From NCBI GenBank assembly GCA_016869215.1, contig VGEP01000038.1, positions 1-43,169 on the forward strand: a stretch of DNA of 43,169 nt, given 5' to 3'. The stretch is from Alphaproteobacteria bacterium (lineage in GTDB: Bacteria > Pseudomonadota > Alphaproteobacteria > Rhizobiales > Xanthobacteraceae). Under the pieces are notes generated by a model, which searched no databases, was not told the origin of the DNA, and saw only the letters and a program-made list of their open reading frames with translations. The number at the start of each line of letters is the position of its first letter. The first letter of the stretch is position 1. Positions 7,559-33,070 of this stretch are shown piece after piece. The position numbers and the translations under genes are program-made.

Positions 7559-7963
7559 CTACGTTCCTCCGGCGTAGGCCGTGCGGTTGATAAACTCCAG
7601 TGCGGTGCCGTCCGGGTCGCGGAAGTAGGCGCGCGGACCGTCGATGGTGCCGCCGCGGCGATCCTCTTCGAAGAACACGTCGACGCCCTTCGCGCGCAGG
7701 CCGTCGACCGCGGCCCGATACTCGGCGGCGTCGACGATGAACGCGTGATGCACACCGTTCGACATTTCGAGCGGGCCCTTGACGATGGGCGCGGGGCGTT
7801 TGATCAGCAGCAGGCAGACGCCTCCAGCATCGAGGAAGGTGATGCCCTGGTCTTTCGTCTGGCTCAGGAATTTGCAGCCGACGATCTCGGTGTAGAACTT
7901 CGTGCTCCGGTCGATGTTGCTGACCGGAATGCTGAAATGCGCAACGCCTTTGAGGTCCGGCAT
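7559..7963 (-). CDS. VOC family (glyoxalase/bleomycin-resistance-like) protein
   Basis: A 134-residue vicinal-oxygen-chelate protein with two beta-alpha-beta-beta-beta halves. Seen: GVAHFSIPV with a candidate metal-ligand His9, NGVHHAFIV at the start of the second half, and FRDPDGTALEFI with the usual C-terminal glutamate. This pattern is typical of single-domain glyoxalase-like or ring-cleavage-like proteins; substrate unknown. The frame is open far upstream, but the ATG at 7963 has a clear GGAGGG eight bases before it and homology begins there. Downstream of the HI0933-type flavoprotein gene on the same strand. Confidence 0.88.
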   Translation of the reverse strand: MPDLKGVAHFSIPVSNIDRSTKFYTEIVGCKFLSQTKDQGITFLDAGGVCLLLIKRPAPIVKGPLEMSNGVHHAFIVDAAEYRAAVDGLRAKGVDVFFEEDRRGGTIDGPRAYFRDPDGTALEFINRTAYAGGT

Positions 7964-7997
7964 GACAGTGACCCTCCGTCCACGCCGGGACATGGTC

Positions 7998-9233
7998 TCA
8001 CGGTTCGCCGCTGCGCGCGAGCCAGGCGAGCGCCCCCCGGGCCGCGGCCGCGCCGGTGGCGAATGATGCCTGCAGAAGATAGCCGCCGGTCGGCGCTTCC
8101 CAGTCGAGCATCTCGCCGGCGGCGAACACACCCGGCCGGCAGCGGAGCATGAAACCGGCGTAGAGTGCCTCGAACGCAATCCCGCCGGCGGTCGAGATCG
8201 CGCGATCGATCGGTGCTGTGGCGGTCAGACGGACGGGCACGGCGTTGATGAGGCCGGCAAGTTCGGCTGTGCTCAGAGACGCGAGCTTGCCGGACGCGGC
8301 CTCGTGCAGCAGGCCGATGGCGGGCGGCGACAGCCCCGCTGCTTTCCGCAGGATGTTCGACAGCGATTGCTTGTTGCGCGGCGCGTCCAGACGTTGCTGC
8401 AATTCCGCGCCCGGCAGGTCGGGACGCAACGCGATGTGCAGCACGGCGTGGCCCGACGCGGCGACGGCGTCGCGCAACGGCCCGGACAGCGCGTAGATCG
8501 CTCCGCCCTCGATGCCTTGACGTGTGACAATGGCTTCGCCGCGCACCGTCTGTCCGCCGAACGACAGCTCGATCCGCTTCAGCGGCTGGCCTTGGAACCG
8601 TTCGCCGAACGCATCGGGCCATTCGGCGACGAAGCCGCAATTCGCCGGCCGCAACGGCGCAATCGCAACGCCGATGTTCTGCAGAATTCCGGTCCAGCCG
8701 CCGTCCGAGCCGAGCCGCGGCCAGCTTGCGCCGCCGAGCGCGAGCACGGCCGCGTCGGCGTGGATCGCCACGTGTCCGTCCGGCGTGTCGAACTTGAGAT
8801 CGCCATGCTCGTCCCACCCCATCCAGCGGTGGCGAAGCTTCAGCGCGACGCCAGCCTCGCCGAGCCGCCGCAGTAACGCGCGCAGCAGCGGCGAAGCCTT
8901 GAACGATTTCGGAAACACCCGGCCGCTGGAGCCGACGAAAGTCGCTTCGCCGAGCCCTTCGCACCACGCGCGCACCGCAGAAGGCGGAAACGCCTCGACC
9001 GCCGCACGCAGACGCGGCGCTGCTGCGCCGTAGCGCGTCAGGAATCGCGACAGTGCCTCGCTGTGCGTGAGGTTGAGGCCGCCGCGGCCGGCGAGCAGGA
9101 GCTTCCGCCCGGCGGACGGCATGCGTTCGTAAATTGTAACCCGCGCGCCGCCTTTCGCCAGAACCTCGGCCGCCATCAAGCCGGCCGGACCCGCGCCGAT
9201 GACGGCGACGCGCGGACGCGAACCCGCGGTCAT
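7998..9233 (-). CDS. HI0933-like NAD(P)/FAD-dependent flavoprotein (TIGR03862 type)
   Basis: A 411-residue flavoprotein of the HI0933/BaiN superfamily. Seen: an N-terminal GAGPAGLMAAE (residues 13-23), the family motif [18 protein letters not shown] (about 44-62), LALGGASWPRLGSDG, and a C-terminal GVFAAGEMLDWEAPTGGYLL. Close family members lack a settled function, though BaiN of gut Clostridia acts on bile-acid derivatives; that role should not be transferred here. The ATG directly follows the TAG stop of the ABC exporter gene with no gap, so the two are very probably one transcript with coupled translation. Confidence 0.9.
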   Translation of the reverse strand: MTAGSRPRVAVIGAGPAGLMAAEVLAKGGARVTIYERMPSAGRKLLLAGRGGLNLTHSEALSRFLTRYGAAAPRLRAAVEAFPPSAVRAWCEGLGEATFVGSSGRVFPKSFKASPLLRALLRRLGEAGVALKLRHRWMGWDEHGDLKFDTPDGHVAIHADAAVLALGGASWPRLGSDGGWTGILQNIGVAIAPLRPANCGFVAEWPDAFGERFQGQPLKRIELSFGGQTVRGEAIVTRQGIEGGAIYALSGPLRDAVAASGHAVLHIALRPDLPGAELQQRLDAPRNKQSLSNILRKAAGLSPPAIGLLHEAASGKLASLSTAELAGLINAVPVRLTATAPIDRAISTAGGIAFEALYAGFMLRCRPGVFAAGEMLDWEAPTGGYLLQASFATGAAAARGALAWLARSGEP

Positions 9234-11084
9234 CTACTCCGCCGCCTGCGCGGGCGGTGCCGAGTCGATAAATCCGCCGGACTGTCGCTTCCATAGATCG
9301 GCGTAATGGCCGCCTGCGCGGAGAAGCTCGGCGTGCGTGCCTTGCTCGACGATGCGGCCGCGGTCGAGCACCACCAGCCGGTCCATGCGGGCGATGGTCG
9401 AGAGCCGGTGGGCGATGGCGATCACCGTCTTGCCGGCCATCAGCGTGTCGAGGCTCGTCTGGATCGCGCCTTCCACCTCGGAGTCGAGCGAGGAGGTGGC
9501 CTCGTCCAGCACCAGAATCGGCGCATTCTTCAGGATCACGCGGGCGATGGCGATGCGCTGGCGCTGACCGCCGGACAGCTTCACGCCGCGCTCGCCGACG
9601 TGGGCGTCGTAGCCGCGCCGTCCGCGCCAGTCCTCTAGTTCGTGGATGAAGACGTCGGCCTGCGCCTGTTTCGCCGCGGCGAGAATCTCCGCCTCCGATG
9701 CTTCCGGGCGTCCGTAGCGGATGTTGTCGCGGATCGAGCGATGCAGCAGCGAGGTGTCCTGCGTCACCACGGAAATCTGTGCGCGCAGGCTCTCCTGCGT
9801 CGCCATTGCGATGTCCTGGCCGTCGATCAGGATGCGGCCGTCCTCCAGGTCGAAGAATCGCAGCATCAGGTTGACCAGCGTCGACTTGCCCGCGCCCGAG
9901 CGCCCGACGAGGCCGATGCGCTCGCCCGCCGCGACCTTCAGCGACAGGCCGTCGATCAGCCCGCTCTCGCGACCATAGCCGAAGCGGATGTCCTGGAACT
10001 CGATCTCGCCGCGCGCGACCTTGAGCTCGGTCGCGCCGGGCTTGTCGGTGAGCTGGATCGGCCGCGAGATCGTCATCATGCCTTCCTGCACGACGCCGAT
10101 GTTTTCGAAAATCTCGGTGACGCGCATCGCGACCCAGCCGGCGATTGAGATGATCTGCCAAGACAGCGGCAGCGCCATCGCGACCGTGCCGACCTCGACC
10201 TTGCCGTGCATCCAAAGCCAGATCGCCATCGCGCCGGTGCCGGTCACCAGCATGGCGTTGAGCGTGGACAGGCACAGGCTGAACAGCGTGTTGAGCCGCA
10301 GCGAGGCATGGAACAGGCCGGTGTGCTCGTCAAACGCCTCGCGCACATAGGCGTCCTCGTCGCGGGCGCGGGCGAACAGCTTGACGGTGAGGATGTTGGT
10401 GTAGGTGTCGACGATGCGGCCGACCAGCCACGAACGCGCCTCGGAGACGTCCTTGGAGCGGTCGCGCATGCGCGGCACGAAATACCGCAGCATCAAAATA
10501 TAGCCGCCGAACCACAGCAGGATCGGCAGCGCCAGCCAGCGGTCGGCCGAGGCGAGCAGGATCAGCGCCGCGGTGCCGTAGACCAGGATGTACCAGACGC
10601 CGGTGATCAGCGCGACGAGGCTCTCGCGCACCGCGGGCCCGGTCTGCATCACGCGATTGGATATCCGTCCGGCGAAATCGTTCTGAAAAAACGCCCAGGA
10701 CTGGCGCGCCACGTGCCAGTGGTTCTGCCAACGGATCATGTTGGCGACGTTGACGGCGATCGCCTGGTTGCTCACCAGGTTCTGCGCCATCATCGCGAGC
10801 GGCCGCAAGAACAACAGCACGACGGCCATGCCGACCAGAACCGGCCAGTTCTCGCGCCAGATCGTCTCCGGAGTGCTCGAAGTAATCAACGTCACGATCC
10901 GGCCCATGAAGGCCGGGATCGAGGCGTCGAGAATGGCGACGATGAAGCCAGTCAGGAACAGGGCTGCGAACAGCCCCTTGGCCTGGCGCGCAAAGTGCCA
11001 ATAGAACGCCACCAGACCCCCGGGCGGCTCCGTTTCCGCAGGCCGGTCGGTTGGGTTGAGGGCTTTTTCGAACAGGCGGAACAT
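9234..11084 (-). CDS. ABC exporter, fused membrane and ATPase domains (MsbA/ABCB type)
   Basis: A 616-residue half-transporter that would act as a homodimer in the inner membrane. The six-helix membrane domain spans about residues 35-330. The ATPase follows with Walker A GRSGAGKS (394-401), signature LSGGQ (503-507) and Walker B ILVLDE (523-528). This is the lipid/drug exporter type; the substrate cannot be read from sequence. It is the first gene of an apparent two-gene unit with the flavoprotein gene that abuts it. The full length and all ATPase motifs are intact. Confidence 0.95.
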   Translation of the reverse strand: MFRLFEKALNPTDRPAETEPPGGLVAFYWHFARQAKGLFAALFLTGFIVAILDASIPAFMGRIVTLITSSTPETIWRENWPVLVGMAVVLLFLRPLAMMAQNLVSNQAIAVNVANMIRWQNHWHVARQSWAFFQNDFAGRISNRVMQTGPAVRESLVALITGVWYILVYGTAALILLASADRWLALPILLWFGGYILMLRYFVPRMRDRSKDVSEARSWLVGRIVDTYTNILTVKLFARARDEDAYVREAFDEHTGLFHASLRLNTLFSLCLSTLNAMLVTGTGAMAIWLWMHGKVEVGTVAMALPLSWQIISIAGWVAMRVTEIFENIGVVQEGMMTISRPIQLTDKPGATELKVARGEIEFQDIRFGYGRESGLIDGLSLKVAAGERIGLVGRSGAGKSTLVNLMLRFFDLEDGRILIDGQDIAMATQESLRAQISVVTQDTSLLHRSIRDNIRYGRPEASEAEILAAAKQAQADVFIHELEDWRGRRGYDAHVGERGVKLSGGQRQRIAIARVILKNAPILVLDEATSSLDSEVEGAIQTSLDTLMAGKTVIAIAHRLSTIARMDRLVVLDRGRIVEQGTHAELLRAGGHYADLWKRQSGGFIDSAPPAQAAE

Positions 11085-18075: not shown

Positions 18076-18948
18076 CTACTGCTCGCCGCCGATCATGCCG
18101 GCGATCTTCCAGGCGCCGCCTTCCTTCACGTAGCAAAGCTCGTCGCCGGCGAGCGGGCTGATGGCGTCGGCCGGCACAAAGCCGACCTTGCCGGACGGTG
18201 CGACGATGCGGAGCATCGGGGCCTGCGGATTGGGCGGCGCGGCGTCGGGCATCACGCGCACCAGATGCATGCCGAGTTTTTCGACGACGGCGGAGTTGGG
18301 CTGCGCCCCGGCCCGCATCTCGATGCCGGCTTCGACCGTGAAGCCCCAGTCGCCTTCCTCGGTGCCGGTGGTCTTGGCCAGCGCTTCGAGGTCCTGCGGG
18401 TTGAACTCCGGCCCTGCGGGCGCACAGATCGTGTCCTTTCGCTCCGGGAATGGGGCTGCGGTCGGATCGGCCGCGTAACCGCCGAGGACCTCCCAGCCGG
18501 TGCCGCCCTGGGCATCGAGGCCGACGGCCTTGGCAAGGTTATCGATCGCCGGCCGCTTCTTGTCGGCGATGTCGCCCTTCTCGCCGAGCCAGAAGAACGT
18601 CTTGGCCATCAGGCCCGCGAGCGCCTTGCGGTCCTTCTTTTGCGCGACCTCGCCGAGGCGCTTGCGGAAGGCCTCGAAGCTCGGGTCGCTGAACGGTTTG
18701 GGCACGCCGACCGCAACCACTTTGTACGGTCGCGGCGGCGCCATCTGGGGAGCCGCCTGCTGCTGCGGTTGCTGAAGCTGCTGCAGCGGCGTGGGCTGCT
18801 GCGGGCGCTGCTGTTGCTGTGGTTGCTGGGCCTGGCCGCCGGCGGGCGGCAGCTGCGACGGACGCGGCAATTGGCTTTGCGCAAAGGCCGGCGTCGCGGC
18901 AAGCGCCACGACGGCGGCGGTAACGGCAATCGAGAAACGGTGGCCCAT
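18076..18948 (-). CDS. secreted SH3-like protein with Gln/Pro-rich linker
   Basis: A 290-residue exported protein of unknown function. Signal peptide at about 1-23 (…PAFA-QSQ), a Gln/Pro-rich low-complexity linker at about 25-72, a helical domain (about 74-170, including PFSDPSFEAFRKRL and KKRPAIDNLAKAVGLD), and a C-terminal SH3-like domain (about 200-275, IEMRAGAQPNSAVVEKLG to GKVGFVPADAI). Two cysteines (TICAP, ELCYV) are conserved in the paralog at 19121 and probably form a disulfide. Bacterial SH3 domains often bind cell-wall peptides, so a periplasmic or wall role is inferred. The pair suggests a local duplication. Confidence 0.8.
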   Translation of the reverse strand: MGHRFSIAVTAAVVALAATPAFAQSQLPRPSQLPPAGGQAQQPQQQQRPQQPTPLQQLQQPQQQAAPQMAPPRPYKVVAVGVPKPFSDPSFEAFRKRLGEVAQKKDRKALAGLMAKTFFWLGEKGDIADKKRPAIDNLAKAVGLDAQGGTGWEVLGGYAADPTAAPFPERKDTICAPAGPEFNPQDLEALAKTTGTEEGDWGFTVEAGIEMRAGAQPNSAVVEKLGMHLVRVMPDAAPPNPQAPMLRIVAPSGKVGFVPADAISPLAGDELCYVKEGGAWKIAGMIGGEQ

Positions 18949-19120: not shown

Positions 19121-19870
19121 TCAGCCGCCGGCCACGAAACCGACGATATGCCAACGGCCGAGCGCGTCCTTGGCGAAGCAAAGCTGCGGCTCGGCCAGCG
19201 ATCCGAGGCTGCCCGGCGCGACGTACCCGGGCGCGCCGGACGGGACCACGATTTCCGTCCACCGATCGCGCGCGGTGGCCTTGCCGTCGCCGCCCGAGCC
19301 GCGCAGCCGCACGAAATGCGCACCGAGCTCGGCGACGAGCGCGCCGCCCGGCTGTGGCGTTGCGCGGACCGCCAGCTTGGCCGCGCGGGGGTAGGCCCAG
19401 TCGGCGGCTGTGGTGAAGGTCCGGTCGAGAAGCCGCGCATAGAGCACCACGTCGAAGTGCGGCCGCGCCGGTGCGCAGACCGTGCCCGGCCGCGCCTCCT
19501 GCGCTTCGACTTCGGCCCCGGCGGCAAACCGGGCCAGTGCGTCCCAGCCGGCGCCGTCGTTGCGCTCAAGCCCGACCGCCGCCGCGAGATTGTCCACCCC
19601 CGGCCGGCGCCGCTCATAGGCCTGCGCGAAATCGCGGTCCCAGAAGAAGCCCTGCGGCGTCACCAGACTTGTCAGGTCTGCGTAGCGGCGCACCTTGGCG
19701 GCGGCGGCGAGCGCCTTGCGAAACTCATCGAAGGTTGCGTCCGCAAGCGGCGGTGCGGATTTGACCGCGACGATGTCATAGGGCCGTGGCGGCATGGGCT
19801 GACGTTCCGCCGCGCCCGCGTGGGACGACGCGCAAAGTGCAACGAGGATGAGCACGATCTTGGGGCGCAT
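19121..19870 (-). CDS. secreted SH3-like protein, paralog of the 18076-18948 product
   Basis: A 249-residue exported protein. It shares with its downstream neighbour the PPRPYDIVAV start of the mature part, the F-D-EFRKAL helix, a RRPGVDNLAAAVGLE segment, G-x-GWD-x-L, TVCAP, the SH3-like core AVRATPQPGGALVAELG and the closing QLCFAK, but lacks the Gln-rich linker. Both paired cysteines are kept. Predicted periplasmic; function unknown. Sequence divergence shows an old duplication. No strong ribosome-binding site is seen before the ATG at 19870. It lies downstream of two small membrane-protein genes on the same strand. Confidence 0.78.
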   Translation of the reverse strand: MRPKIVLILVALCASSHAGAAERQPMPPRPYDIVAVKSAPPLADATFDEFRKALAAAAKVRRYADLTSLVTPQGFFWDRDFAQAYERRRPGVDNLAAAVGLERNDGAGWDALARFAAGAEVEAQEARPGTVCAPARPHFDVVLYARLLDRTFTTAADWAYPRAAKLAVRATPQPGGALVAELGAHFVRLRGSGGDGKATARDRWTEIVVPSGAPGYVAPGSLGSLAEPQLCFAKDALGRWHIVGFVAGG

Positions 19871-22853: not shown

Positions 22854-24158
22854 TCAGCGCACGCCGGCCGCATAAGCGCGCTGGCGCACCACCAGCATGA
22901 ACAGCAACGCCAGGTTGGCGATGTTGAATGCAACGCCGGTCAAAAACGCCGGCGCGTAATAGCCGTGCATGTCGTAGAGATAGCCCGCGAGCCAGCCGCC
23001 GGTCGCCATGCCGGCGCCGCTGAGCAGCATCAGCGCCGGAACGCGCCAGTGCGCTTCGCTCAGCGGGTAAAGCTCGCGGATGGTCAGGATGTAGGCCGGG
23101 ATCAGCGCGCTGAAGCCGAAGCCGAACGCGATCGAAACCGTGAATACGCTCCACTCGCCCTGCACAAACAGGAAACCGCTGATGGCGATGCCTTGCAGCG
23201 CGGAACTTGCCAGCGCAGTCATCAGCCCGCCGATGCGGTCGGACACCCAGCCCCAGGCCTGGCGGCTGAAGAAGCCCATGCCGAGCAGGAGCGACAGCAT
23301 CGCCGCGCCGAGCGTCGCCGACATGCCGAGATCGGTGCAGAACGCGACCATGTGCTGCTGCGGCATCGACATGGTGACGCAGCACAGGAACGATGCGAAG
23401 GCCAGCAGCGCGAACACCGCGTTGGCGTTCCAGCCGAACACGGTCCGCTTGCCGCCGTTCTGAGCGGAAACGGTACCGGTAACGCCTGCATCCGGCGGCG
23501 CGCGCAGGAAGGCGATGGCGAACGGCACGATCATGGCGAACTGGAACACGGCAAAGCCCATCATCGTGCCGCGCCAGCCGAAATAGGCCATCGAGCGCTC
23601 GAAGACCGTCGGCCACACGAAGCCTGCGAGGTAGCCGCCGCTCGAAATCAGCGCCAGCGCCGAACCGCGGCGGCGGTCGAACCAGCGGCTGACGTACACC
23701 ATCAGCGGTGCGTTGAGGCCCGCGTTGCCGATCAGGCCCATGAACAGGCCGTGGCCGAGGTAGAGATGCCACGGCTGTGTGGCGTTCGCCGAGATGAACA
23801 GCCCGACTGCCATCATCGAGCTGCCGCTGATCACCGACCAGCGGATGCCGTAGCGCTCGGCAATCCGCCCCATCAGCAGGCCGCCGGCGCCGGAGCCGAG
23901 CCATGCGAGAGACATCGCGAGCGAAGGGATCGAGCGCACGCCGCCCATGTCCTCGGCGACGGCTTTCAGTCCGACGGCGGTGATCCAAAGGCCGCCGAAC
24001 GACAGAGCGAGCAGCATCAGCGAGATGCTCGCAACGACCCAGGAGGTGCGCGTCTCGATGCTGCGCGGCCCCGCGCCTGGCGCGCTTTCGGGGCGCGGTT
24101 CGATGCTGTGCGTCGTCAAACCAGGTCCCGGCGGATCGGTTGGAGGCGGCGATGTCAC
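22854..24158 (-). CDS. major facilitator superfamily transporter
   Basis: A protein of about 434 residues with twelve predicted membrane helices. Seen: the loop 2-3 motif GGLLMGRIAERYGIRW (variant of G-x3-D-R-x-G-R), YVSRWFDRRRGSALAL after helix four as in oxalate/formate and monocarboxylate carriers, and a second-half copy GWVSDRIGGL. Likely a carboxylate carrier. The frame opens upstream to 24314, but the GTG at 24158 with GGCGGGG before it better fits the hydrophobic core; start uncertain. It is divergent from the Bug array and shares a 203-base regulatory region with it. Confidence 0.88.
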   Translation of the reverse strand: MTSPPPTDPPGPGLTTHSIEPRPESAPGAGPRSIETRTSWVVASISLMLLALSFGGLWITAVGLKAVAEDMGGVRSIPSLAMSLAWLGSGAGGLLMGRIAERYGIRWSVISGSSMMAVGLFISANATQPWHLYLGHGLFMGLIGNAGLNAPLMVYVSRWFDRRRGSALALISSGGYLAGFVWPTVFERSMAYFGWRGTMMGFAVFQFAMIVPFAIAFLRAPPDAGVTGTVSAQNGGKRTVFGWNANAVFALLAFASFLCCVTMSMPQQHMVAFCTDLGMSATLGAAMLSLLLGMGFFSRQAWGWVSDRIGGLMTALASSALQGIAISGFLFVQGEWSVFTVSIAFGFGFSALIPAYILTIRELYPLSEAHWRVPALMLLSGAGMATGGWLAGYLYDMHGYYAPAFLTGVAFNIANLALLFMLVVRQRAYAAGVR

Positions 24159-24361: not shown

Positions 24362-25330
24362 ATGGGCAGGCTCGCCGCGGCCTTGGCGTTCGCGTTGTTC
24401 GCCGTCGTTGTCCCTGCCACAGCGCAGACGTTCCCGTCGAAACCGATCACCATGATCGTGCCGTTCCCCGCAGGCGGCGGTTCGGACATCCTGGCGCGCA
24501 TCGTCGCCGAACGCATGAAGGCGTCGCTCGGCCAGCCGGTGATCATTGAGAACGTCGGCGGCGCCGGAGGCACCATCGGCACCGGCCGCGTCGCGCGCGC
24601 GGCGCCGGACGGCTACACCGTCGGTTTCGGCCAGTGGAGCTCGCATGTCGGCAGCGGCGCGCTCTACCCGCTGCAGTTCGATCTGCTGCGCGACCTTACG
24701 CCGGTGGCGCGGCTGACCGAAGCGCGGCTTTGGATCATCGGCCGTCCCGATCTGCCGGCGAAAAATCTGCGCGAGCTGATCGCGTGGCTCAAGGCCAATC
24801 CCGGCAAGGCGACCGGCGGTACCGTCGGCGCGGGCAGCGGCGTGCAGCTCTGCTTCATCGACTTCCAGAACAGCACCGGCACCAAATTCAACCTGGTACC
24901 GTACCGCGGCGCGGCCCCGATCATGCAGGACCTGCTGGCGGGCCAGATCGACCTGTCGTGCCCCGAGGCCGGCCAGACGCTGTCGCTGTACCGCGCCGGC
25001 AAGATCAGGGCGTTCGCGGTCATGGGCCAGAAGCGCTGGTTCGCCGCGCCAGAAGTGCCGACCACCGAGGAGGCCGGCGCGCCCGGACTGCATATGACGT
25101 TCTGGTACGGCCTTTGGGCGCCGGCCGGCGTGCCGAAGGACATTATCGCAAGGCTCAATGCGGCGGTCGTGGACACGTTCGCCGATCCGGCGGTGCGCGC
25201 GCGGCTGACCGAGCAGGGCCACGAAATTCCTTCGCGCGATCAGCTCAAGCCGGAGGCGCTCGGCAAGCACCACAAGTCCGAAATCGACAAATGGTGGCCC
25301 ATCATCAAGGCTGCCGGGATCAAATTGTAA
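24362..25330 (+). CDS. TTT (Bug/TctC) solute-binding protein, array member 1
   Basis: A 322-residue periplasmic binding protein; signal peptide about 1-21 (…PATA-QTF). Seen: PFPAGGGSDILARI, IENVGGAGGTIG, APDGYT, VPYRGAAPIMQDLLAGQ, FWYGLWAPAGVPKD and EIDKWWPIIKAAGI. The mature protein has exactly two cysteines, Cys164 and Cys200, at positions shared with members 5, 6 and 7 by neither more nor less than two residues of shift except member 4, which keeps only the second. First gene of the array, with GGGGAGGAG just before the ATG and 33 bases before the next gene. Ligand unknown. Confidence 0.94.
   Translation: MGRLAAALAFALFAVVVPATAQTFPSKPITMIVPFPAGGGSDILARIVAERMKASLGQPVIIENVGGAGGTIGTGRVARAAPDGYTVGFGQWSSHVGSGALYPLQFDLLRDLTPVARLTEARLWIIGRPDLPAKNLRELIAWLKANPGKATGGTVGAGSGVQLCFIDFQNSTGTKFNLVPYRGAAPIMQDLLAGQIDLSCPEAGQTLSLYRAGKIRAFAVMGQKRWFAAPEVPTTEEAGAPGLHMTFWYGLWAPAGVPKDIIARLNAAVVDTFADPAVRARLTEQGHEIPSRDQLKPEALGKHHKSEIDKWWPIIKAAGIKL
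24785..24808 (+). repeat. 24-bp exact repeat shared with 30931-30954
   Basis: The same 24 bases (TGGCTCAAGGCCAATC…CAAG) occur in array members 1 and 7, 6.1 kb apart in direct orientation, encoding WLKANPGK. Short exact homology in a paralog array that could support recombination. Confidence 0.8.
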
Positions 25331-25363
25331 CTGACGAAGGCTATCGTTCTGGGGAGAGAAAAA

Positions 25364-26326
25364 ATGTTCAAGCTCATGGTTGCCGTTGCGCTCGGTGCAA
25401 TGGCGAGCGTTGCGGGCGCGAGCGCGCAGACCTTTCCGTCGCGTTCGGTCACGCTGATCGTGCCGTTCCCGCCGGGCGGCTCCACCGACACCATCGCCCG
25501 CATCATGGCGGAGAAGATGCGCGCCACGCTCGGCCAGACCGTGGTGATCGAAAACGTCGGCGGCGCGGGCGGTAGCATCGCGGTCGGCCGCCTCGCGCGC
25601 GCGGCGCCGGACGGCTACACCATCGACATCGGCCAGTGGGACACCCACGTCGGCAGCATCATCTACAACATCAACTTCGACCTGCAGACCGACTTCACGC
25701 CGATCGGGCTGATGTCGATCAATCCGCAGTTGATGCTGGCGCGCAAGGATTTTCCGGCCAACGACCTCCGGGGTCTCGTCGCCTGGATGAAGGCCAATCC
25801 GGGAGCCGCGAAGTTCGTCAACCAGAACGCGGCCGCCCAGATCACCGGCCTCCTGATGGAGAGGCAGACCGGCACCAAGGTGAACTATATCCCGTATCGC
25901 GGCGCCGGGCCCGCCATGACCGACCTGATCTCGCAGCAGGTCGATCTGCTGGTGGTGCAGGCCGCAGTCGCGCTGCCGCAACTCCGCGGCGGCACCATCA
26001 AGGCGATCGCCAACCTGTCACCGAAGCGTTCGCCGTCGCTGCCGGATATCCAGACTTCGGACGAGGGCGGTGTGCCCGGCCTCTACATGTCGGGATGGTT
26101 CGGCCTGTTCGCGCCGAAGAACACGCCGAAGGACGTGGTCGCCAAGCTCAACGCCGCGATGGTGGCGACGCTGGCCGATCCCACGGTGAAGGCGCGCTAC
26201 GCCGATCTCGGTCTCGACATCGCGACGCGGGAGCAGCAAACGCCGGAGGGTCTCGCCGCGTTCAACAAGGCCGAGATCGACAAGTGGTGGCCGATCATTA
26301 GGGGTGCGGGCATCCGCGCCCAGTAG
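25364..26326 (+). CDS. TTT (Bug/TctC) solute-binding protein, array member 2
   Basis: A 320-residue periplasmic binding protein; signal peptide about 1-21 (…GASA-QTF). Seen: PFPPGGSTDTIARI, IENVGGAGGSI, APDGYT, IPYRGAGPAMTDL, GWFGLFAPKNTPKD and EIDKWWPIIRGAGI. It has no cysteine in the mature part, the two sites being occupied by other residues (AAQITGLL and VDLLVVQA). It also replaces the W-H-G motif of other members by W-F-G, so its ligand pocket probably differs. Start has GGGGAGAG upstream; 31 bases to the next gene. Confidence 0.94.
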   Translation: MFKLMVAVALGAMASVAGASAQTFPSRSVTLIVPFPPGGSTDTIARIMAEKMRATLGQTVVIENVGGAGGSIAVGRLARAAPDGYTIDIGQWDTHVGSIIYNINFDLQTDFTPIGLMSINPQLMLARKDFPANDLRGLVAWMKANPGAAKFVNQNAAAQITGLLMERQTGTKVNYIPYRGAGPAMTDLISQQVDLLVVQAAVALPQLRGGTIKAIANLSPKRSPSLPDIQTSDEGGVPGLYMSGWFGLFAPKNTPKDVVAKLNAAMVATLADPTVKARYADLGLDIATREQQTPEGLAAFNKAEIDKWWPIIRGAGIRAQ

Positions 26327-26357
26327 CGGCTCGGGAGTAACCAACGGAGGCGTTGCG

Positions 26358-27326
26358 ATGCGGAGGACATTGTCGGTGCTGGTGATCGCCGCCGCGTTCG
26401 TTACCGGAGCGCAGGCGCAAACCTACCCATCGCGGCCGGTCACCATCATCGTGCCGTTCCCCGCCGGCGGCTCGACCGGCGCGATGGCGCGCATCCTGCT
26501 GGAGCCGTTGCAGGCGGCGCTCGGCCAGACCGTGATCGTCGAGAACGTCGGCGGCGCCGGCGGCAGCATCGGCGCCGGCCGCGTCGCGCGCGCCGCTCCC
26601 GACGGCTACACGGCCGTGTTCAGCCACTTGCAGACCCACGTGCTGAACGGTGCTGTCCTCAACCTGACCTACGACGTCGTCGCAGACTTCGAGCCGGTGG
26701 CGCTGATTGCGGACACGCCGCAGACCATCGTCGCGCGCAAGGCGTTCCCGGCCGACAACCTGAAGGACACGGTCGCCTGGCTCAGGGCGAATCCCGGCAA
26801 GGGAACGGTCGGCGCCGTGGGCGTCGGCGGGCCGAGCGACATCACCGTGTTCCAGTTCCAGAAGCTGACCGGCACCAGGCTGCAGCTCGTGCCCTATCGC
26901 GGCGGCGCGCCGCTGCTGCAGGATCTGGTCTCGGGGCAGATCGATTTCAATTTCGGTCAGGCCTCGACCTATCTCGGCGCGGTGCGCAGCGGCCAGCTCA
27001 AGGCGCTGGCCGTGCAGAGGAAGCAGCGCTGGCCGATCGCGCCCGAGATTCCCACCGTGGATGAGGGCGGCGTGCCGGGGCTCTACGGCTCTTACTGGCA
27101 CGGCATGTGGCTTCCGAAGGGCACGCCCAAGGACATCGTCGTCAGATTGAACGCCGCTGTCGTCGCCGCGCTGGGCGACCCCGCGGTCCAGAAGCGTTTC
27201 AGCGACTTCGGCCAGGAAACCTGGCCGCGTGCGCAGCAGACGCCGGAAGCTCTCGCGGCGCATCAGAAGGCCGAGATCGAGCGCTGGTGGCCGATCGTCA
27301 AGGCCGCCGGCATCAAACCACAGTGA
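26358..27326 (+). CDS. TTT (Bug/TctC) solute-binding protein, array member 3
   Basis: A 322-residue periplasmic binding protein; signal peptide about 1-20 (…GAQA-QTY). Seen: PFPAGGSTGAMARI, VENVGGAGGSIG, APDGYT, VPYRGGAPLLQDL, YWHGMWLPKGTPKD and EIERWWPIVKAAGI. No cysteines in the mature part (SDITVFQF and IDFNFGQA at the two sites). The frame opens earlier, but the ATG at 26358 has CGGAGG seven bases upstream and starts the signal peptide. In the same apparent operon as members 1-6; 31 bases to the next start. Confidence 0.94.
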   Translation: MRRTLSVLVIAAAFVTGAQAQTYPSRPVTIIVPFPAGGSTGAMARILLEPLQAALGQTVIVENVGGAGGSIGAGRVARAAPDGYTAVFSHLQTHVLNGAVLNLTYDVVADFEPVALIADTPQTIVARKAFPADNLKDTVAWLRANPGKGTVGAVGVGGPSDITVFQFQKLTGTRLQLVPYRGGAPLLQDLVSGQIDFNFGQASTYLGAVRSGQLKALAVQRKQRWPIAPEIPTVDEGGVPGLYGSYWHGMWLPKGTPKDIVVRLNAAVVAALGDPAVQKRFSDFGQETWPRAQQTPEALAAHQKAEIERWWPIVKAAGIKPQ

Positions 27327-27357
27327 GATCCCAGTTCGCCGACAAACGGAGGCGGCC

Positions 27358-28329
27358 ATGCGCAGGTTGGTGGTTTCGGCATTTCTGATCCTGGCCGTCA
27401 CAGCTTCTGATGTGCGGGCCCAGGACTATCCGACGAAGCCCATCACCATCGTGGTGCCGACCTCGCCGGGCGGCCCGCCGGACACGCTGGCGCGGCTGCT
27501 TAGCGAGCGGATGCGCGCGGTGCTGGGCCAGCCGATCGTGATTGAGAACGTGACCGGTGCGGGTGGCACCGCGGGAGTGACGCGTGCAGCGCGTGCGGCT
27601 CCCGACGGCTACACGTTGAGCATCGGTCATTTCAATTCGCACGTCATCAGCAGCATCAGCTACAACGTACCCTACGACCCGCTCAAGGACCTTGAGCCGG
27701 TGGCGATGCTGGTCAGCGCGCCGATGCTGTTCATCGCGCGGCAGGACATTCCCGCTGCGAACCTTCGTGAACTGGTGGCGTGGTTGAAGGCCAATCCGAA
27801 CAAGGCGACATTCGGATCGGTGGGCGTCGGCGGGCCGGCGCGGCTGTGGGGCTCGCAATTCCAGCAGGCCAACGGCGCGCCGTTCCAGTTCGTGCCCTAT
27901 CGCGGCGCGGTTTTGATCGTGCAGGACATGCTGGCCGGCCACATCGATCTCGGCTGCATGGAGGCGTCGAACATTGTTCCACATCTACGGGGCGGCAAGA
28001 TTCGCGTGCACGCCGTACTGACCAAGGACCGCTGGAAGGTCGCGCCGGAAATCCCGACAATTGCGGAGACCGGCGTCGCCGGCCTGGAAATGACTTTCTG
28101 GCACGGCATGTGGGTGCCGAAAGGCACACCGCGGGATGCGGTGACGAAGCTCAACCGCGCCGTTGTCGCGGCCCTCAACGATCCGGCAGTGCGCAGACGG
28201 CTCGGCGAACTGGGCCAGGACGTGGTCCCCGCGAGCCAGCTCACGCCGGAGGCGCTGGGCGCGCACCACAAGGCCGAGATCGACAAATGGTCGCCGCTCG
28301 TGAAGGCGGCCGGCATCAAGGCGCAATGA
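27358..28329 (+). CDS. TTT (Bug/TctC) solute-binding protein, array member 4
   Basis: A 323-residue periplasmic binding protein; signal peptide about 1-21 (…DVRA-QDY). Seen: PTSPGGPPDTLARL, IENVTGAGGTAG, APDGYT, VPYRGAVLIVQDM, FWHGMWVPKGTPRD and EIDKWSPLVKAAGI. It keeps only the second of the two array cysteines (Cys200; Trp164 at the other site), so it may be losing or have never gained the disulfide. The ATG at 27358 has ACGGAGG six bases upstream. 21 bases to the next gene. Confidence 0.94.
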   Translation: MRRLVVSAFLILAVTASDVRAQDYPTKPITIVVPTSPGGPPDTLARLLSERMRAVLGQPIVIENVTGAGGTAGVTRAARAAPDGYTLSIGHFNSHVISSISYNVPYDPLKDLEPVAMLVSAPMLFIARQDIPAANLRELVAWLKANPNKATFGSVGVGGPARLWGSQFQQANGAPFQFVPYRGAVLIVQDMLAGHIDLGCMEASNIVPHLRGGKIRVHAVLTKDRWKVAPEIPTIAETGVAGLEMTFWHGMWVPKGTPRDAVTKLNRAVVAALNDPAVRRRLGELGQDVVPASQLTPEALGAHHKAEIDKWSPLVKAAGIKAQ

Positions 28330-28350
28330 ACGAAGCAATGGGGGAACGCA

Positions 28351-29319
28351 ATGCGAAGGTCCATTCTGGCACTGGCAGCCATTCTGATCTCAGCGGCGGG
28401 CGCTCAGGCGCAGTCCTATCCCAACCGGCCGATCACGATGGTCGTGCCGTTCCCTGCGGGCGGTGCGACGACCGTTCTGGCGCGCATCGTCGGCGAGCAC
28501 ATGAAAGGCGCGCTCGGCCAGCCGGTGATCATCGAGAACATCGGCGGCGCGAGCGGCAGCCTCGGCACCGGCCGCGCCGCGCGCGCGGCACCGGACGGCT
28601 ACACGCTGAGCTTCGGCAACTGGGCGAGTCACGTCGGCTCCGGCGCGATGTATTCGCTGCAGTTCGACCTGCACGCGGACCTCGTGCCGGTGGCGTTCAT
28701 CGCCAACTCGCCGCTGTGGGTCGTGGCGAAGAACGGCTTTCCGGCGCGCGACCTGAAGGAGTTCATCGCCTGGCTCAAGGCCAACCCCGGCAAGGGATCG
28801 GCGGCGACCGTAGGCGTCGGCAGCGGCTCGCACATGTGCGGCATCTATATCCAGAGCGTCACCAAGACCGAATTCCAGTTCGTGCCCTATCGAGGCGGCG
28901 CGCCGGCGATGCAGGACCTGGTCGGCGGCCAGGTCGACTTCATGTGCGACTTCGCCGGCAACTCGCTGCCGAATGCGCGCAATGGCCAGATCAGGCCGAT
29001 TGCGGTGATGGCCAAGCAGCGCTGGTTCGCCATGCCGAACGTGCCGACCTTCGAGGAGATGGGCATCAAGGGGCTGGAGATGTCGTTCTGGCACGGGCTG
29101 TGGGCGCCGAAGGGAACCGACAAGGAGATCGTCGCCAGGCTCAATGCGGCGGTGCGCGCGGCGTTTGCCGATCCAACCGTGAAGGCGCGCTACAACGACA
29201 TGGGACAGGAGTTGCCTGCGCCCGCGCAGCAGTCGCCCGAAGCGCTGGCGCGTTTCCACAAGGCGGAAACGGACAAGTGGTGGCCGATCATCAAGGCGGC
29301 CAACATCAAGATACAGTAA
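28351..29319 (+). CDS. TTT (Bug/TctC) solute-binding protein, array member 5
   Basis: A 322-residue periplasmic binding protein; signal peptide about 1-20 (…GAQA-QSY). Seen: PFPAGGATTVLARI, IENIGGASGSLG, APDGYT, VPYRGGAPAMQDL, FWHGLWAPKGTDKE and ETDKWWPIIKAANI. Exactly two cysteines in the mature part, Cys163 (SHMCGIY) and Cys199 (DFMCDFA), 36 apart. Start follows GGGGGAACGCA. Closest by eye to member 6, with which it shares the C-D-x-A-x-NSLP stretch, so these two may be the youngest duplication in the row. Confidence 0.94.
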   Translation: MRRSILALAAILISAAGAQAQSYPNRPITMVVPFPAGGATTVLARIVGEHMKGALGQPVIIENIGGASGSLGTGRAARAAPDGYTLSFGNWASHVGSGAMYSLQFDLHADLVPVAFIANSPLWVVAKNGFPARDLKEFIAWLKANPGKGSAATVGVGSGSHMCGIYIQSVTKTEFQFVPYRGGAPAMQDLVGGQVDFMCDFAGNSLPNARNGQIRPIAVMAKQRWFAMPNVPTFEEMGIKGLEMSFWHGLWAPKGTDKEIVARLNAAVRAAFADPTVKARYNDMGQELPAPAQQSPEALARFHKAETDKWWPIIKAANIKIQ

Positions 29320-29356
29320 CCATCCGGCAATCGAACCTGAAATGGACGGACAACAT

Positions 29357-30328
29357 ATGAAACGTGCAATCGTGGCCGCGCTCATCGCGGCCGGCATCGG
29401 CGCAATGCAGGCCAAGGCGCAGGACTTCCCGTCGCGGCCGATCACGCTCGTCGTCGCGCTGCCGGCCGGCGGCGGGGTCGACGCGCTGGCTCGCACCGTG
29501 GCCGAGCACATGAAGACCACGCTCGGTCAGTCGATCATCGTCGAGAACATGGGCGGCGCGGGCGGCACGCTGTCGATTGCGCGCGTCGTGCGGTCGGCCG
29601 CGGACGGCTACACGCTCGGCATGGGCACGCTCGGCCAGTACGTGATCTCGGGCGCGGTCTACACGCTGAGCTACGACATGCTGGCCGATCTCACGCCGGT
29701 TTCGCTGCTGCCGAGCGTGCCGTACTGGATGATCGCGCGGAAAAATCTCCCGGCGAACAACCTCGAGGAACTGGTCGCCTGGCTCAAGGCCAATCCCGAC
29801 AAGGCATCGGCCACGACCGTGGGCACGGCGTCGCTGGCGCGGTTCTGCGGCATGTTCTTCCAGAAGGCGACCGGAACGAGCTTCCAGTTTGTGCCCTACC
29901 GCGGCGGCGCGCCCGCGCTTCAGGACGTGGTCGCGGGCAACATCGACCTGTCGTGCGATCTCGCCGCCAATTCGCTGCCGCAGTTCCGCAACGGCAACGT
30001 GAAGGCGTTGGCGGTCATGTCGAAGCAGCGCTGGTTCGCCGCGCCCGACATTCCGACCGCCGAGGAGGCCGGTGTGCCCGGCATCGACGTCAGCACCTGG
30101 CACGGCATCTGGGCGCCGAAGGGCGCGCCGCCGGCGGTCGTCGCAAAGATCGACGCGGCGGTTCAGGCCGCTTTGAAGGACCCTGCGACGCAAAAGCGCA
30201 TCGCGGACCTGGGGATGATCATGCCGCCCGCGGACCGCAGGACGCCCACCGCATTTGCGGCGTTTCACAAGGCCGAGGTGGAGAAGTGGTACCCGATCGT
30301 GCGGGCGGCGGGCATCAAGGCGCAATAG
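29357..30328 (+). CDS. TTT (Bug/TctC) solute-binding protein, array member 6
   Basis: A 323-residue periplasmic binding protein; signal peptide about 1-21 (…AKA-QDF). Seen: ALPAGGGVDALART, VENMGGAGGTLS, AADGYT, VPYRGGAPALQDV, TWHGIWAPKGAPPA and EVEKWYPIVRAAGI. Exactly two mature cysteines, Cys164 and Cys200. The ATG at 29357 is preferred because it begins the signal peptide; an in-frame ATG at 29342 would add five residues, and neither has a strong ribosome-binding site. A hairpin at 30359-30381 follows, so it is probably the last gene of the main operon. Confidence 0.93.
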   Translation: MKRAIVAALIAAGIGAMQAKAQDFPSRPITLVVALPAGGGVDALARTVAEHMKTTLGQSIIVENMGGAGGTLSIARVVRSAADGYTLGMGTLGQYVISGAVYTLSYDMLADLTPVSLLPSVPYWMIARKNLPANNLEELVAWLKANPDKASATTVGTASLARFCGMFFQKATGTSFQFVPYRGGAPALQDVVAGNIDLSCDLAANSLPQFRNGNVKALAVMSKQRWFAAPDIPTAEEAGVPGIDVSTWHGIWAPKGAPPAVVAKIDAAVQAALKDPATQKRIADLGMIMPPADRRTPTAFAAFHKAEVEKWYPIVRAAGIKAQ

Positions 30329-30358
30329 GCAGCCGGGTTCGTGGATGCCGGAATGCGA

Positions 30359-30381
30359 GCGGCCGCTGTCGGGGCGGCCGC
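30359..30381 (+). terminator. terminator after array member 6
   Basis: Perfect 8-bp arms GCGGCCGC / GCGGCCGC with a 7-base loop, followed by ATTGCTTCTTGG; outer bases AATGC / GCATT pair again with a small bulge. It separates members 1-6 from member 7. Confidence 0.6.
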
Positions 30382-30419
30382 ATTGCTTCTTGGCCGGCCC
30401 GCCATACGGTAAAACAGGA

Positions 30420-30463
30420 CAACAATGCTGACTTTTCGGCCCATGCCACGGGGGTCATTGTTG
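30420..30463 (+). promoter_or_regulatory. structured leader of array member 7
   Basis: Inverted repeat CAACAATG (30420-30427) / CATTGTTG (30456-30463). A direct repeat GCTGACTTT occurs at 30427-30435 and again at 30468-30476, the latter within a small hairpin GCTGA-CTT-TCAGC. All lies upstream of the member 7 ATG (30502). Possible operator or RNA leader; no known element recognised. Confidence 0.35.
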
Positions 30464-30501
30464 CGCCGCTGACTTTCAGCACGGGCAATCTGGGGGACTG
30501 C

Positions 30502-31491
30502 ATGAAACTTGTGACCATTGCTGCGGCAGCGGCTGCGCTGGCGCTTGCCGGAACCACGGGCGCTCAGGCGCAGGCGTTTCCATCAAAGCCGATAACGATT
30601 GTCGTTGGCTTCCCGGCGGGCGGGCCGACCGACACCGTGGCGCGCGTTCTGGCCGATCACATGAAAGGAACGCTTGGCCAAAGTGTGATCGTCGAAAACA
30701 AGGCTGGCGCTGCCGGAACTCTTGGCCTGACGCACGTGTCTCGCGCCGATCCCGATGGCCATACGCTCTACGTCGGCAATTGGACGGTGAATGTCGGCGC
30801 AGTCCGTACCTTCGAAGTCCCCTACAATCCGCTTACGGGCTTCGAGCCGGTGGCGCTGCTGACGACGTCCAAGCTCTGGATTCTCGCGCGCAAGGACTTG
30901 CCGGCGGAAGACGCGAAGGGACTGATTGCCTGGCTCAAGGCCAATCCCGGCAAGGGCAATGCGGCCTCGGTCGGCGTCGGCAGCGCTGCGCATGTCTGCC
31001 TGGTCGACTTCATGCAGCGAAGCGGCACGAACTTTCAGGTCGTGACCTATCGCGGCGGCGCGCCCGCGGTCCAGGATCTGGCCGGCGGGCAGGCCGATTT
31101 CTCCTGCCTGGAAGCGGGACAGACGCTCGGGCTGTATCGCGGCGGCAAGGTCAAGATCATCGGCGTGGCTAGCAAGACGCGCTTCCCCGCCGCCAAGGAG
31201 GTGCCGACGCTCGGCGAGGGCGGACTGCCGGGCGCGGAAATCGATTTCTGGCACGGACTGTGGGCGCCGAAGAACACGCCGAAGGCTGTCGTCGACAGGC
31301 TGACCGACGCGGTCCAAAAGGCGTTTGCAGATGCGACGGTGCAGAAGCGGTTCGCGGACGTGGGTCACTCGTTACCGGCAAAAAACGAGATGTCGCCGAA
31401 GGCACTCGTCGACCATCACAAGGCCGAGCTCGATAAGTGGTGGCCGATCATGGAGAAGGCCGGGATCAAGATGTTCCCGGTGAAGAAGTGA
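30502..31491 (+). CDS. TTT (Bug/TctC) solute-binding protein, array member 7
   Basis: A 329-residue periplasmic binding protein; signal peptide about 1-24 (…AQA-QAF). Seen: GFPAGGPTDTVARV, VENKAGAAGTLG, DPDGHT (His for Tyr), TYRGGAPAVQDL, FWHGLWAPKNTPKA and ELDKWWPIMEKAGI. Exactly two mature cysteines, Cys166 and Cys202, 36 apart as in members 1, 5 and 6. GGGGGACTGC precedes the ATG. It has its own 173-base leader after a terminator and another strong hairpin behind, so it is transcribed separately from members 1-6. Confidence 0.94.
   Translation: MKLVTIAAAAAALALAGTTGAQAQAFPSKPITIVVGFPAGGPTDTVARVLADHMKGTLGQSVIVENKAGAAGTLGLTHVSRADPDGHTLYVGNWTVNVGAVRTFEVPYNPLTGFEPVALLTTSKLWILARKDLPAEDAKGLIAWLKANPGKGNAASVGVGSAAHVCLVDFMQRSGTNFQVVTYRGGAPAVQDLAGGQADFSCLEAGQTLGLYRGGKVKIIGVASKTRFPAAKEVPTLGEGGLPGAEIDFWHGLWAPKNTPKAVVDRLTDAVQKAFADATVQKRFADVGHSLPAKNEMSPKALVDHHKAELDKWWPIMEKAGIKMFPVKK
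30931..30954 (+). repeat. 24-bp exact repeat shared with 24785-24808
   Basis: Second copy of the 24-bp direct repeat in array member 7. A further 17-bp exact repeat, AAGTGGTGGCCGATCAT, occurs three times in the array at 26282-26298, 29275-29291 and 31435-31451, near the 3' ends of members 2, 5 and 7. Confidence 0.8.
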
Positions 31492-31509
31492 CGGCGGGCG
31501 ACTGACGAC

Positions 31510-31540
31510 CGGGACGCCGCGTGGGGGATGCGGCGTCCCG
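31510..31540 (+). terminator. terminator after array member 7
   Basis: Perfect 11-bp inverted repeat CGGGACGCCGC / GCGGCGTCCCG with a 9-base loop, 19 bases after the stop. No T-tract, but the stem is very stable. Confidence 0.6.
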
Positions 31541-31664
31541 CAGTGTCGCCGTCAGCGAATGTGCGGCGCGGATGTCGGTCGGCGCGCATGGTGAGCAATC
31601 GAGCCCTGCCATCGTCGGCTGTGCGACGGCCGAGGCAGGCTCGCGACCACAAGGGGGGAATGTC

Positions 31665-32639
31665 ATGTGGCTACCATCGTCTATCGTTGGTCTTGCCCTC
31701 GCATTGTTCCTCGCCGCGGGAGCGCAGGCGCAAACCTATCCAACCAGGCCGGTCACGATCATTTCGGATTCGGCGCCGGGTTCGGCCATCGATACAAGCC
31801 TGAGGATCATCGCTGAGGGGCTTAGCCAGAAGTGGGGCCAGCAGACGGTGGTGGTCAACCGGCCGGGCGCCGGCGGGGCAATTTCGGCAAAGGTTGCAGC
31901 CGAGGCGTCGCCCGATGGCTATACCGTTTATGCGCCGGCACTGTCGGTGTTTCTCACGGTCCCCGGCAAGGCGCCCAACCTTCCGCTGCAGCTGCCACGC
32001 GATTTTGTGGCGATCGGGCTGACGGTCGAACAGCCGATGTCGATTGGGATCAATCCCAAGCTCGGCATCAACACGCTGTCCGAGCTGATCGCCGAGGCGA
32101 AGAAGAAGCCCGGCAGCATTTCCTATGCAGTCACGGGTGTGGGGCGGCTGACCCACCTGACCGGCGAATTGCTGCAGATCCGCGGCAATATCAAGCTGCA
32201 AATGGTGCCCTACACCGGCGGTTCAGCACAGGCGCTTGCCGATATCTTGTCAGGCCGCGTCGCAATGGTGATCGAAGGCTATGCCGGCCTCGCCGGCGCC
32301 TATCAATCGGGCCAGCTCAAGTCTTTGGCAATCGCATCCGGCAAGCGTCTGGCGCACCTGCCGAACCTGCCGACCGTGTCCGAAACGCTGCCGGGTTTTA
32401 TCGCCGCCGGTTGGCAAGCGGTGGTGGCGCCCATCGGCACACCCGAGGCGATCGTGCGCAAGGCGAGCGACGATCTGCGGGAGGTCCTGGCCACACCTGG
32501 CGTCAAGGACAAACTTGCCGCGCGCGGTTCCTATGCGATACCCGCCACCCCCGCCGAAACTCTTGCCTTTGTCCGCAGTCAGCAAGAGTTGTGGAAGCCG
32601 GCTCTGGAGCAGGTCGAGCGCCAGTTCAAGCAGAAGTAG
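31665..32639 (+). CDS. TTT (Bug/TctC) solute-binding protein, divergent eighth-type member at array end
   Basis: A 324-residue periplasmic binding protein; signal peptide about 1-23 (…AQA-QTY). It differs from its neighbours: SDSAPGSAIDTSLRI in place of PFPAGG, VNRPGAGGAIS, a VPYTGGSAQAL motif, GWQAVVAPIGTPEA in place of W-H-G-x-W-x-PKG, and no WWPI ending (it ends EQVERQFKQK). It resembles the genes at 1 and 4088 more than the array, so it probably binds another ligand. AAGGGGGG precedes the ATG. It is the seventh consecutive Bug gene counted from member 1 if member numbering is by operon, and the eighth gene in the row overall is absent. Confidence 0.92.
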   Translation: MWLPSSIVGLALALFLAAGAQAQTYPTRPVTIISDSAPGSAIDTSLRIIAEGLSQKWGQQTVVVNRPGAGGAISAKVAAEASPDGYTVYAPALSVFLTVPGKAPNLPLQLPRDFVAIGLTVEQPMSIGINPKLGINTLSELIAEAKKKPGSISYAVTGVGRLTHLTGELLQIRGNIKLQMVPYTGGSAQALADILSGRVAMVIEGYAGLAGAYQSGQLKSLAIASGKRLAHLPNLPTVSETLPGFIAAGWQAVVAPIGTPEAIVRKASDDLREVLATPGVKDKLAARGSYAIPATPAETLAFVRSQQELWKPALEQVERQFKQK

Positions 32640-32797: not shown

Positions 32798-33070
32798 TCA
32801 ATCGCGCCCGGTCTGCGGACGTCCATCGTTCACCATGGCGGACGTCAGCCAACCCATGACGACGACGATTGCACCGAAGGCCACTGCGAACGCAACGCGG
32901 CCGCCGCTGCTGCCGGCGATGTGGCTCAATGTGTCGGCGCGCGCGATGCCGATGGAAACGGCGGTGACGGCGACCACCAGCGACAGCGTCAGCGCCACGG
33001 TCGTCACCAGAACGGCGACGTTCGCCATTCCATGTCTCTCACGCGAAGGCTCGATCAGGTCGTTGGTCAT
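32798..33070 (-). CDS. small two-helix membrane protein, function unknown
   Basis: A 90-residue protein with two membrane helices (about residues 17-42 and 58-80), a charged N-terminus (NDLIEPSRERHG) and a polar tail. No family recognised. The ATG at 33070 has a weak ribosome-binding site; an internal ATG (residue 15) is an alternative. It is monocistronic: a strong T-rich terminator follows, and a CtrA-type box lies 117 bases upstream of the start, hinting at cell-cycle control. Confidence 0.7.
   Translation of the reverse strand: MTNDLIEPSRERHGMANVAVLVTTVALTLSLVVAVTAVSIGIARADTLSHIAGSSGGRVAFAVAFGAIVVVMGWLTSAMVNDGRPQTGRD

Follow-up and report, generated by a model that had tools for sequence, protein, structure and literature searches.

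The stretch analysed here (the window) is the entire contig VGEP01000038.1 (C38; 43,169 nt) of an alphaproteobacterial draft genome of 5.15 Mb in 123 contigs. It carries a row of eight consecutive plus-strand genes (B1 to B8, positions 24362-32639) for solute-binding proteins (SBPs) of the Bug/TctC family, the receptor type of the tripartite tricarboxylate transporter (TTT) systems. The explanation moderately favoured by sequence comparison is that the row is a receptor-repertoire locus, in which distinct receptors would be made together and would probably share TctAB membrane pairs in trans. Statements about earlier work refer to the portions of PMC5812351, PMC5994714 and PMC8556258 that were available to us.

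According to this explanation, B1 to B8 would be exported periplasmic binding proteins, each with its own ligand pocket. Judging by the gaps between the genes, B1 to B6 are probably carried on one transcript, and B7 and B8 are perhaps under their own signals. Each species of the genus would retain a different subset of old receptor lineages at the same site. The receptors presumably catch different carboxylate-type solutes and would hand them to a few distant TctAB pairs, one porter serving several receptors, as the count of 9 pairs against at least 150 receptors in the genome suggests.

All eight open reading frames (ORFs) gave full-length matches to PF03401 in the Pfam scan (E 1.1e-48 to 3.4e-63; 166.6-214.2 bits against a cut-off of 27). 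An earlier sequence-only reading of this DNA had described a same-strand row of seven similar members and one divergent member, and this description held: B8 was only 27-32% identical to B1-B7. Its term "close paralogs" was too strong, with B1-B7 only 41-59% identical pairwise. The intergenic gaps from B1 to B8 measured 33, 31, 31, 21, 37, 173 and 173 bases; the 21-37-base spacing that it had reported thus applies to five of the seven gaps and fails before B7 and before B8, so that the tight run is B1-B6. Judged by eye, the N-termini of all eight proteins contain a hydrophobic stretch and an AxA-like site. In a sequence-level fold comparison, the best solved match to a profile of B1-B7 was the BugD structure 2f5x (E 1.8e-95).

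Old receptor lineages with group-specific pockets

The locus was compared in 11 genomes of the genus, including the present one. An array was found at the syntenic locus in 10 of the 11 and was absent in G005. The number of members ranged from 4 to 12: 8 in this genome, 4 in G001, at least 5 in G002 (where the array meets a contig end), 7 in G003, 12 in G004, 11 in G006, 5 in G007, 9 in G008, 7 in G009 and 10 in G010. Within all ten arrays the genes lie on one strand, with a median gap of 31.5 bases (n = 68), and 46 of the 68 gaps are no longer than 50 bases.

At the empty site of G005 the flanks are present, with the genes for a major facilitator superfamily (MFS) carrier and a glutathione S-transferase (GST) 455 bases apart. 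Loss of the array appears likelier here than original absence, because a tree of flank proteins places G005 inside the genus (support 100); elsewhere this tree has weak branches and many missing genes. The same position disfavours the empty site as the ancestral state.

For the analysis of age, 78 array genes from the ten genomes were used, and three genes of G018 were left out. They were picked from stop-to-stop ORFs with a score of 250 bits or more against a window gene, a threshold that misses weak fragments. In a tree of 115 rows, B1-B7 fell into a clade supported at 100/99, which also contains array members from the other species, five dispersed genes and sequences of Bradyrhizobium and further bacteria; no two window genes were sisters there. 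The best match lay in another species for 76 of the 78 genes, a count independent of group assignment, the exceptions being B5 (59% to B1) and a single G004 gene. The most similar pair within an array was 48-64% identical, depending on the genome, and none of the ten arrays exceeded 64%.

The array genes were sorted into 15 orthologous groups and three singletons, no group ever holding two genes of one genome; one G008 gene, absent from the 115-row tree, was assigned to group D2 by identity. Median identity within the groups was 60-80%. Gene order was partly conserved, with 256 concordant and 114 discordant pairs (tau 0.38), a value above the maximum of 0.27 reached in 2000 shuffles. Every one of the 78 genes has full length (318-334 aa), and a search without the bit-score filter (cut-off E 1e-8) showed no gene fragment inside the arrays. 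The median dN/dS by group was 0.21-0.39, well below one. The array members are paralogues of long standing and not recent copies, as the cross-species best matches of 76 of the 78 genes show, and their lineages predate the species split in the genus.

Ligand pockets were examined at 16 positions, namely the TphC ligand contacts and loop positions named in PMC8556258, mapped onto B5 by alignment. The comparison covered the 12 groups that have three or more members; three two-gene groups and the three singletons were left out. Within groups, identity at the 16 pocket columns was 0.93 versus 0.74 at the 284 other columns; between groups, it was 0.43 at the pocket columns versus 0.49 elsewhere. 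The difference, within minus between, was larger at the pocket (p = 0.0003). Among columns with a between-group identity below 0.4, the 12 pocket columns reached a within-group identity of 0.91, compared to 0.64 for the 124 others. Of the most group-specific columns, 17 of 25 lay within two residues of a contact, compared to 45 of 300 overall. When the contact set was shifted along the alignment, seven of eight shifted sets gave p ≥ 0.14.

Single groups displayed the same pattern. A pocket string of 19 positions, made up of the 16 and three of the most group-specific columns, was identical in all eight genes of group A, B2 included. The string of B7 differed at one of the 19 positions from three of the six other genes of group H, while its closest array genes were only 52-55% identical overall. 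In group F1, to which B3 belongs, the Asp of the loop motif PFxAGGxxD was Gly in all four genes. This is the pattern that receptors with different, preserved ligands would show. Taken with the common strand, the short gaps in ten arrays and the conserved locus, the pockets fixed within groups favour the suggestion of the sequence-only reading that the receptors may be made together.

Membrane partners and rival explanations

A search of the genome yielded at least 150 places with PF03401 (of 229 candidates, 150 were scored, every one of them a match, which makes the number a lower bound), compared to 9 TctA and 9 TctB places. The sequence-only reading had seen no tctA or tctB in the window, and none of the 9 + 9 places lies on C38, at whose ends the assembly breaks off. 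It had also held that such genes just outside the window would speak against it; none was detected (E ≤ 1e-3) by tblastn with the genome's 18 own TctA/TctB queries in 13 related stretches from 11 genomes, a set that includes the G005 locus without an array. In G003, a single contig, the nearest TctA found lay about 0.73 Mb from the orthologous array (search cut-off E 1e-100). Among the matches listed, the C38 array was by eye the longest same-strand run of Bug genes, followed by four genes on C63.

When the genome was ranked with a profile of B1-B7, these seven proteins scored 527-567 bits and the five dispersed genes 423-488 bits, after which the scores dropped to 345. The stretches around the five dispersed genes contained no TctA/TctB match above 60 bits. 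Near the gene on C60 lie an HpaB-type hydroxylase and a RidA-like protein; around that on C21, on the same strand, a thiamine pyrophosphate enzyme, a hydrolase and an ApbA-like reductase; and near that on C5 an amidase, an AsnC-type regulator and a transketolase-like protein. Some of these neighbours look catabolic; they hint at aromatic and oxo acids as ligands of the clade and show nothing for the array itself.

In a tree of 56 rows, the array formed one group with the five dispersed genes (100/98), and the nearest SBPs linked to a TctBA pair were those of type C42b. The C42b TctB-TctA pair of this genome (L200, G000:C42:24000-36028, at 7638-9570) has no SBP adjoining it. Its orthologues were followed by an SBP in all five genomes examined (G001, G003, G005, G006 and G007), and these SBPs were 57-64% identical to the SBP of this genome at C40:13185. 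The evidence on the earlier idea of one distant transporter is divided: C42b is nearest in the tree and lacks an adjoining SBP here, and four genomes with arrays have no clear orthologue of its TctA. As a single dedicated partner, C42b was favoured by the tree and by the lack of an SBP beside it in this genome, and weakened by these missing orthologues.

TctBA operons of another type, C8, were present in all ten genomes with arrays (L201-L210); they contain between one and three SBP genes, which are of one type, and a gene for an S15/PepX-like hydrolase. One SBP gene of G002 is broken. It follows from these operons that several receptors per porter occur in the genus. The C8-type pair had been considered as an orphan membrane pair, a candidacy suggested by short flanks and given up once SBP genes were seen further upstream in the operon on longer stretches.

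Several observations weigh against a repertoire of distinct receptors served in trans. The genome sequences link the array to no particular TctBA pair. A C42b TctA orthologue at 86-90% identity was found in none of G002, G004, G008 and G009, drafts that are 80-94% complete (best matches 61-65%), and G005 has the C42b TctBA pair without an array. Concerning the members themselves, the orthologous groups were assigned by hand from the 115-row tree, gene order disagreed in 114 of 370 pairs, and one of the eight shifted contact sets (+6) also scored (p = 0.018). The loop motif P-F-x-A-G-G-x-x-D, called almost ubiquitous in Bug/TctC proteins in PMC5812351, was strict in B1 only: B2 and B7 each have one deviation, the Asp is replaced in B3 (by Gly) and in B5 (by Thr), and B4, B6 and B8 have at least two deviations.

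The receptors might instead be mainly sensors, ligand-loaded Bug proteins docking on a membrane sensor and not on a porter, as reported for the Bct system of Bordetella. Sensing has been shown for a Bordetella TTT binding protein and proposed for orphans (PMC5994714, PMC5812351). In the present genome, the dispersed SBP gene on C60 is followed on one strand by genes for RidA-like and chemoreceptor-like proteins (L141, 5859-8815), with the HpaB-type hydroxylase divergent. However, this chemoreceptor-like protein lacks a hydrophobic stretch of the length that a membrane segment needs, which rules out direct contact with a periplasmic protein. In addition, no kinase or response regulator was detected among the 40 window ORFs scanned with Pfam, which leaves the two-component sensors suggested by the sequence-only reading without support here. 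A mainly sensory role is regarded as unlikely. Recent tandem duplication, with copies largely redundant or decaying, might be suspected from the copy number of 0-12 at the locus and from the genome-wide expansion of the Bug family. It was rejected on the cross-species best matches (76 of 78), and the ceiling of 64% on identity within an array, the full-length genes, the median dN/dS of 0.21-0.39 and the pockets conserved within groups also stand against it, leaving this explanation scarcely credible.

The divergent, syntenic MFS carrier could be the membrane partner in place of TctAB, or a co-regulated porter of the array ligands. It adjoins the array in nine of ten genomes, is weakly similar to carboxylate carriers, and its orthologue stands beside array-clade genes in G018, G073 and G042 (two other genera, two arrangements). 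Outside the genus, however, an array-clade gene lay near the MFS orthologue in only 3 of 38 cases examined, some of them on short stretches; 38 of 39 orthologues were covered, leaving out G243, and a second, 59% copy in G001 was also left out. G005 and G056 retain the MFS locus without an array, and the related three-gene array of L031 has no MFS match. We also know of no MFS carrier that works with a binding protein, and a partnership of this kind is considered very improbable. Little credence is likewise given to a locus resembling a chemoreceptor cluster, in which up to a dozen co-made, interchangeable receptors, their pockets fixed and distinct, would be swapped in and out at one site as species adapt, with the syntenic MFS carrier as their common partner. 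If true, the MFS partnership would be a binding-protein-assisted MFS system, and no earlier one is known to us.

Array members and surroundings of the locus

The individual genes differ in the spread of their orthologues. B1 (24362..25330, +; PF03401 E 3.4e-63) belongs to group Ip, with an orthologue in G006 that is 76% identical. B2 (25364..26326, +; E 1.6e-59) falls into group A, with orthologues in seven sister genomes, and B3 (26358..27326, +; E 4.5e-57) into group F1. B4 (27358..28329, +; E 1.9e-62) is a member of group C, with orthologues in three sister genomes. For B5 (28351..29319, +; E 2.5e-61), no orthologue was found in the arrays of the nine sister genomes (70 genes), and in the tree it grouped with a gene of L031. 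B6 (29357..30328, +; E 7.7e-59) belongs to group G, with orthologues in six sister genomes.

The 173-base gap between B6 and B7 (30329..30501, +) contains a nine-pair hairpin at 30359-30381, a possible end of a B1-B6 transcript; such matches were no commoner than in shuffles. Promoter-like sites (0 found, 1.0 expected) and terminator-like sites (6 found, 7.0 expected) likewise gave no signal above chance. B7 (30502..31491, +; E 5.2e-51) was placed with group H (support 95/66). The divergent B8 (31665..32639, +; E 1.1e-48) has an orthologue inside the G004 array (67%), and its relatives in G018 and G073 adjoin array-clade genes. B8-like genes were also seen next to or near B3-like genes in L158 (4259-9711, G006), L160 (4915-6930, G003) and L161 (5023-7010, G001). 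This proximity at further loci indicates that the two types tend to travel together.

The Pfam scan took in 40 window ORFs, array genes included, which correspond to 39 of the 42 predicted genes. Two further Bug genes placed by the sequence-only reading at 1 and 4088 were confirmed by PF03401 matches, the former being a partial gene truncated at the contig's left end, the latter lying on the minus strand. Predicted genes at 5577-7199, 18076-18948 and 19121-19870 had no Pfam match, and the latter two also had no NCBIfam match. Relatives of the gene at 18076 were seen near the same locus in L031, L262, L280 and L281. The antisense strand of several Bug genes (L008, L012 and others) had an open frame along the full gene length, which can mislead ORF-based reading in this GC-rich DNA.

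On the left, the array is flanked by the divergent gene of the MFS carrier (22854..24017, -; PF07690), a neighbour not shown to be part of the array, followed by genes for a glucose/sorbosone dehydrogenase (GSDH) and a formamidase-like protein (FmdA). The weak similarity of the carrier to lactate and oxalate/formate carriers lies below the curated NCBIfam cut-offs. It borders the array in nine of the ten genomes; in G002, the array and the MFS gene lie at contig ends. The right border is marked by a 76-aa ORF (32798..33028, -) with no Pfam or NCBIfam match, found at eight of nine sister loci (not in G008) at 41-56% identity. Beyond it lie genes for GST, a GT87 protein and an old-yellow-enzyme-like protein.

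Similar rows were seen in other metagenome-assembled genomes (MAGs). L031 (4434-15683), from a Xanthobacteraceae MAG, combines a three-SBP array with the flank known from the window (GST, GT87, aminotransferase and DUF992); an ABC exporter-like gene occupies the MFS position, and no MFS, GSDH or FmdA match was present in its 18.4 kb. L043 (12517-18494, Xanthobacteraceae MAG) and L073 (10076-15842, betaproteobacterial MAG) carry six and five same-strand tandem genes, respectively, of a different Bug type.

Relation to known systems and significance

A nine-gene array of TTT binding proteins, orphan tandem TctC genes without TctA/TctB, has been described in Rhodoplanes sp. Z2-YC6860 (PMC5994714). 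With G003 inferred to be that strain, the published array is very probably the orthologous locus: the G003 array has seven members and two SBPs beyond the 76-aa ORF, nine in total, between the MFS/GSDH and GST flanks. Its members belong to groups A, B, D1, D2, E, Gp and I, of which only group A is common to the window. The likeness extends to members mostly below 50% identical and to a genome with hundreds of TctC genes (PMC5994714). For its two relatives, the available text of that paper reports no array of this kind, whereas arrays of 10, 11 and 12 members were found here (G010, G006 and G004).

The comparison with Bordetella and other Betaproteobacteria made in the sequence-only reading was right in kind, with many orphan receptors and few membrane pairs in both (PMC5812351, PMC5994714), although the closest precedent is alphaproteobacterial (PMC5994714). 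The present organism is likewise most probably no betaproteobacterium but an alphaproteobacterium close to Rhodoplanes. That expansion belongs to another lineage, and no conserved tandem repertoire locus is described for it in the available part of PMC5812351. Complete TTT systems, such as TctCBA and TphC with TpiBA (PMC5812351, PMC8556258), are alike in the receptor subunit by sequence, BugD being the best match, and differ in that the window and the surroundings of related arrays contain no TctA/TctB. The BctDE-BctCBA sensing system of Bordetella likewise uses a TTT binding protein as its periplasmic part (PMC5812351, PMC5994714), but neither kinase nor regulator was found beside the window array among the ORFs scanned.

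The array is accordingly related to one already published and does not constitute a new kind. New here are the syntenic conservation followed through 11 genomes, the orthologous groups and the group-specific conservation of pockets. No report on cross-species or pocket conservation of such an array was found in the literature searched, PMC5994714, in its available part, being the only one on such an array.

The finding bears on why some bacteria retain hundreds of orphan Bug receptors. The persistence of 15 old, full-length, pocket-conserved groups despite a copy number swinging between 0 and 12 argues that such orphans are used and not redundant. A receptor-repertoire locus would also make the question testable, as one ligand per group is expected and is predicted to be the same across species.

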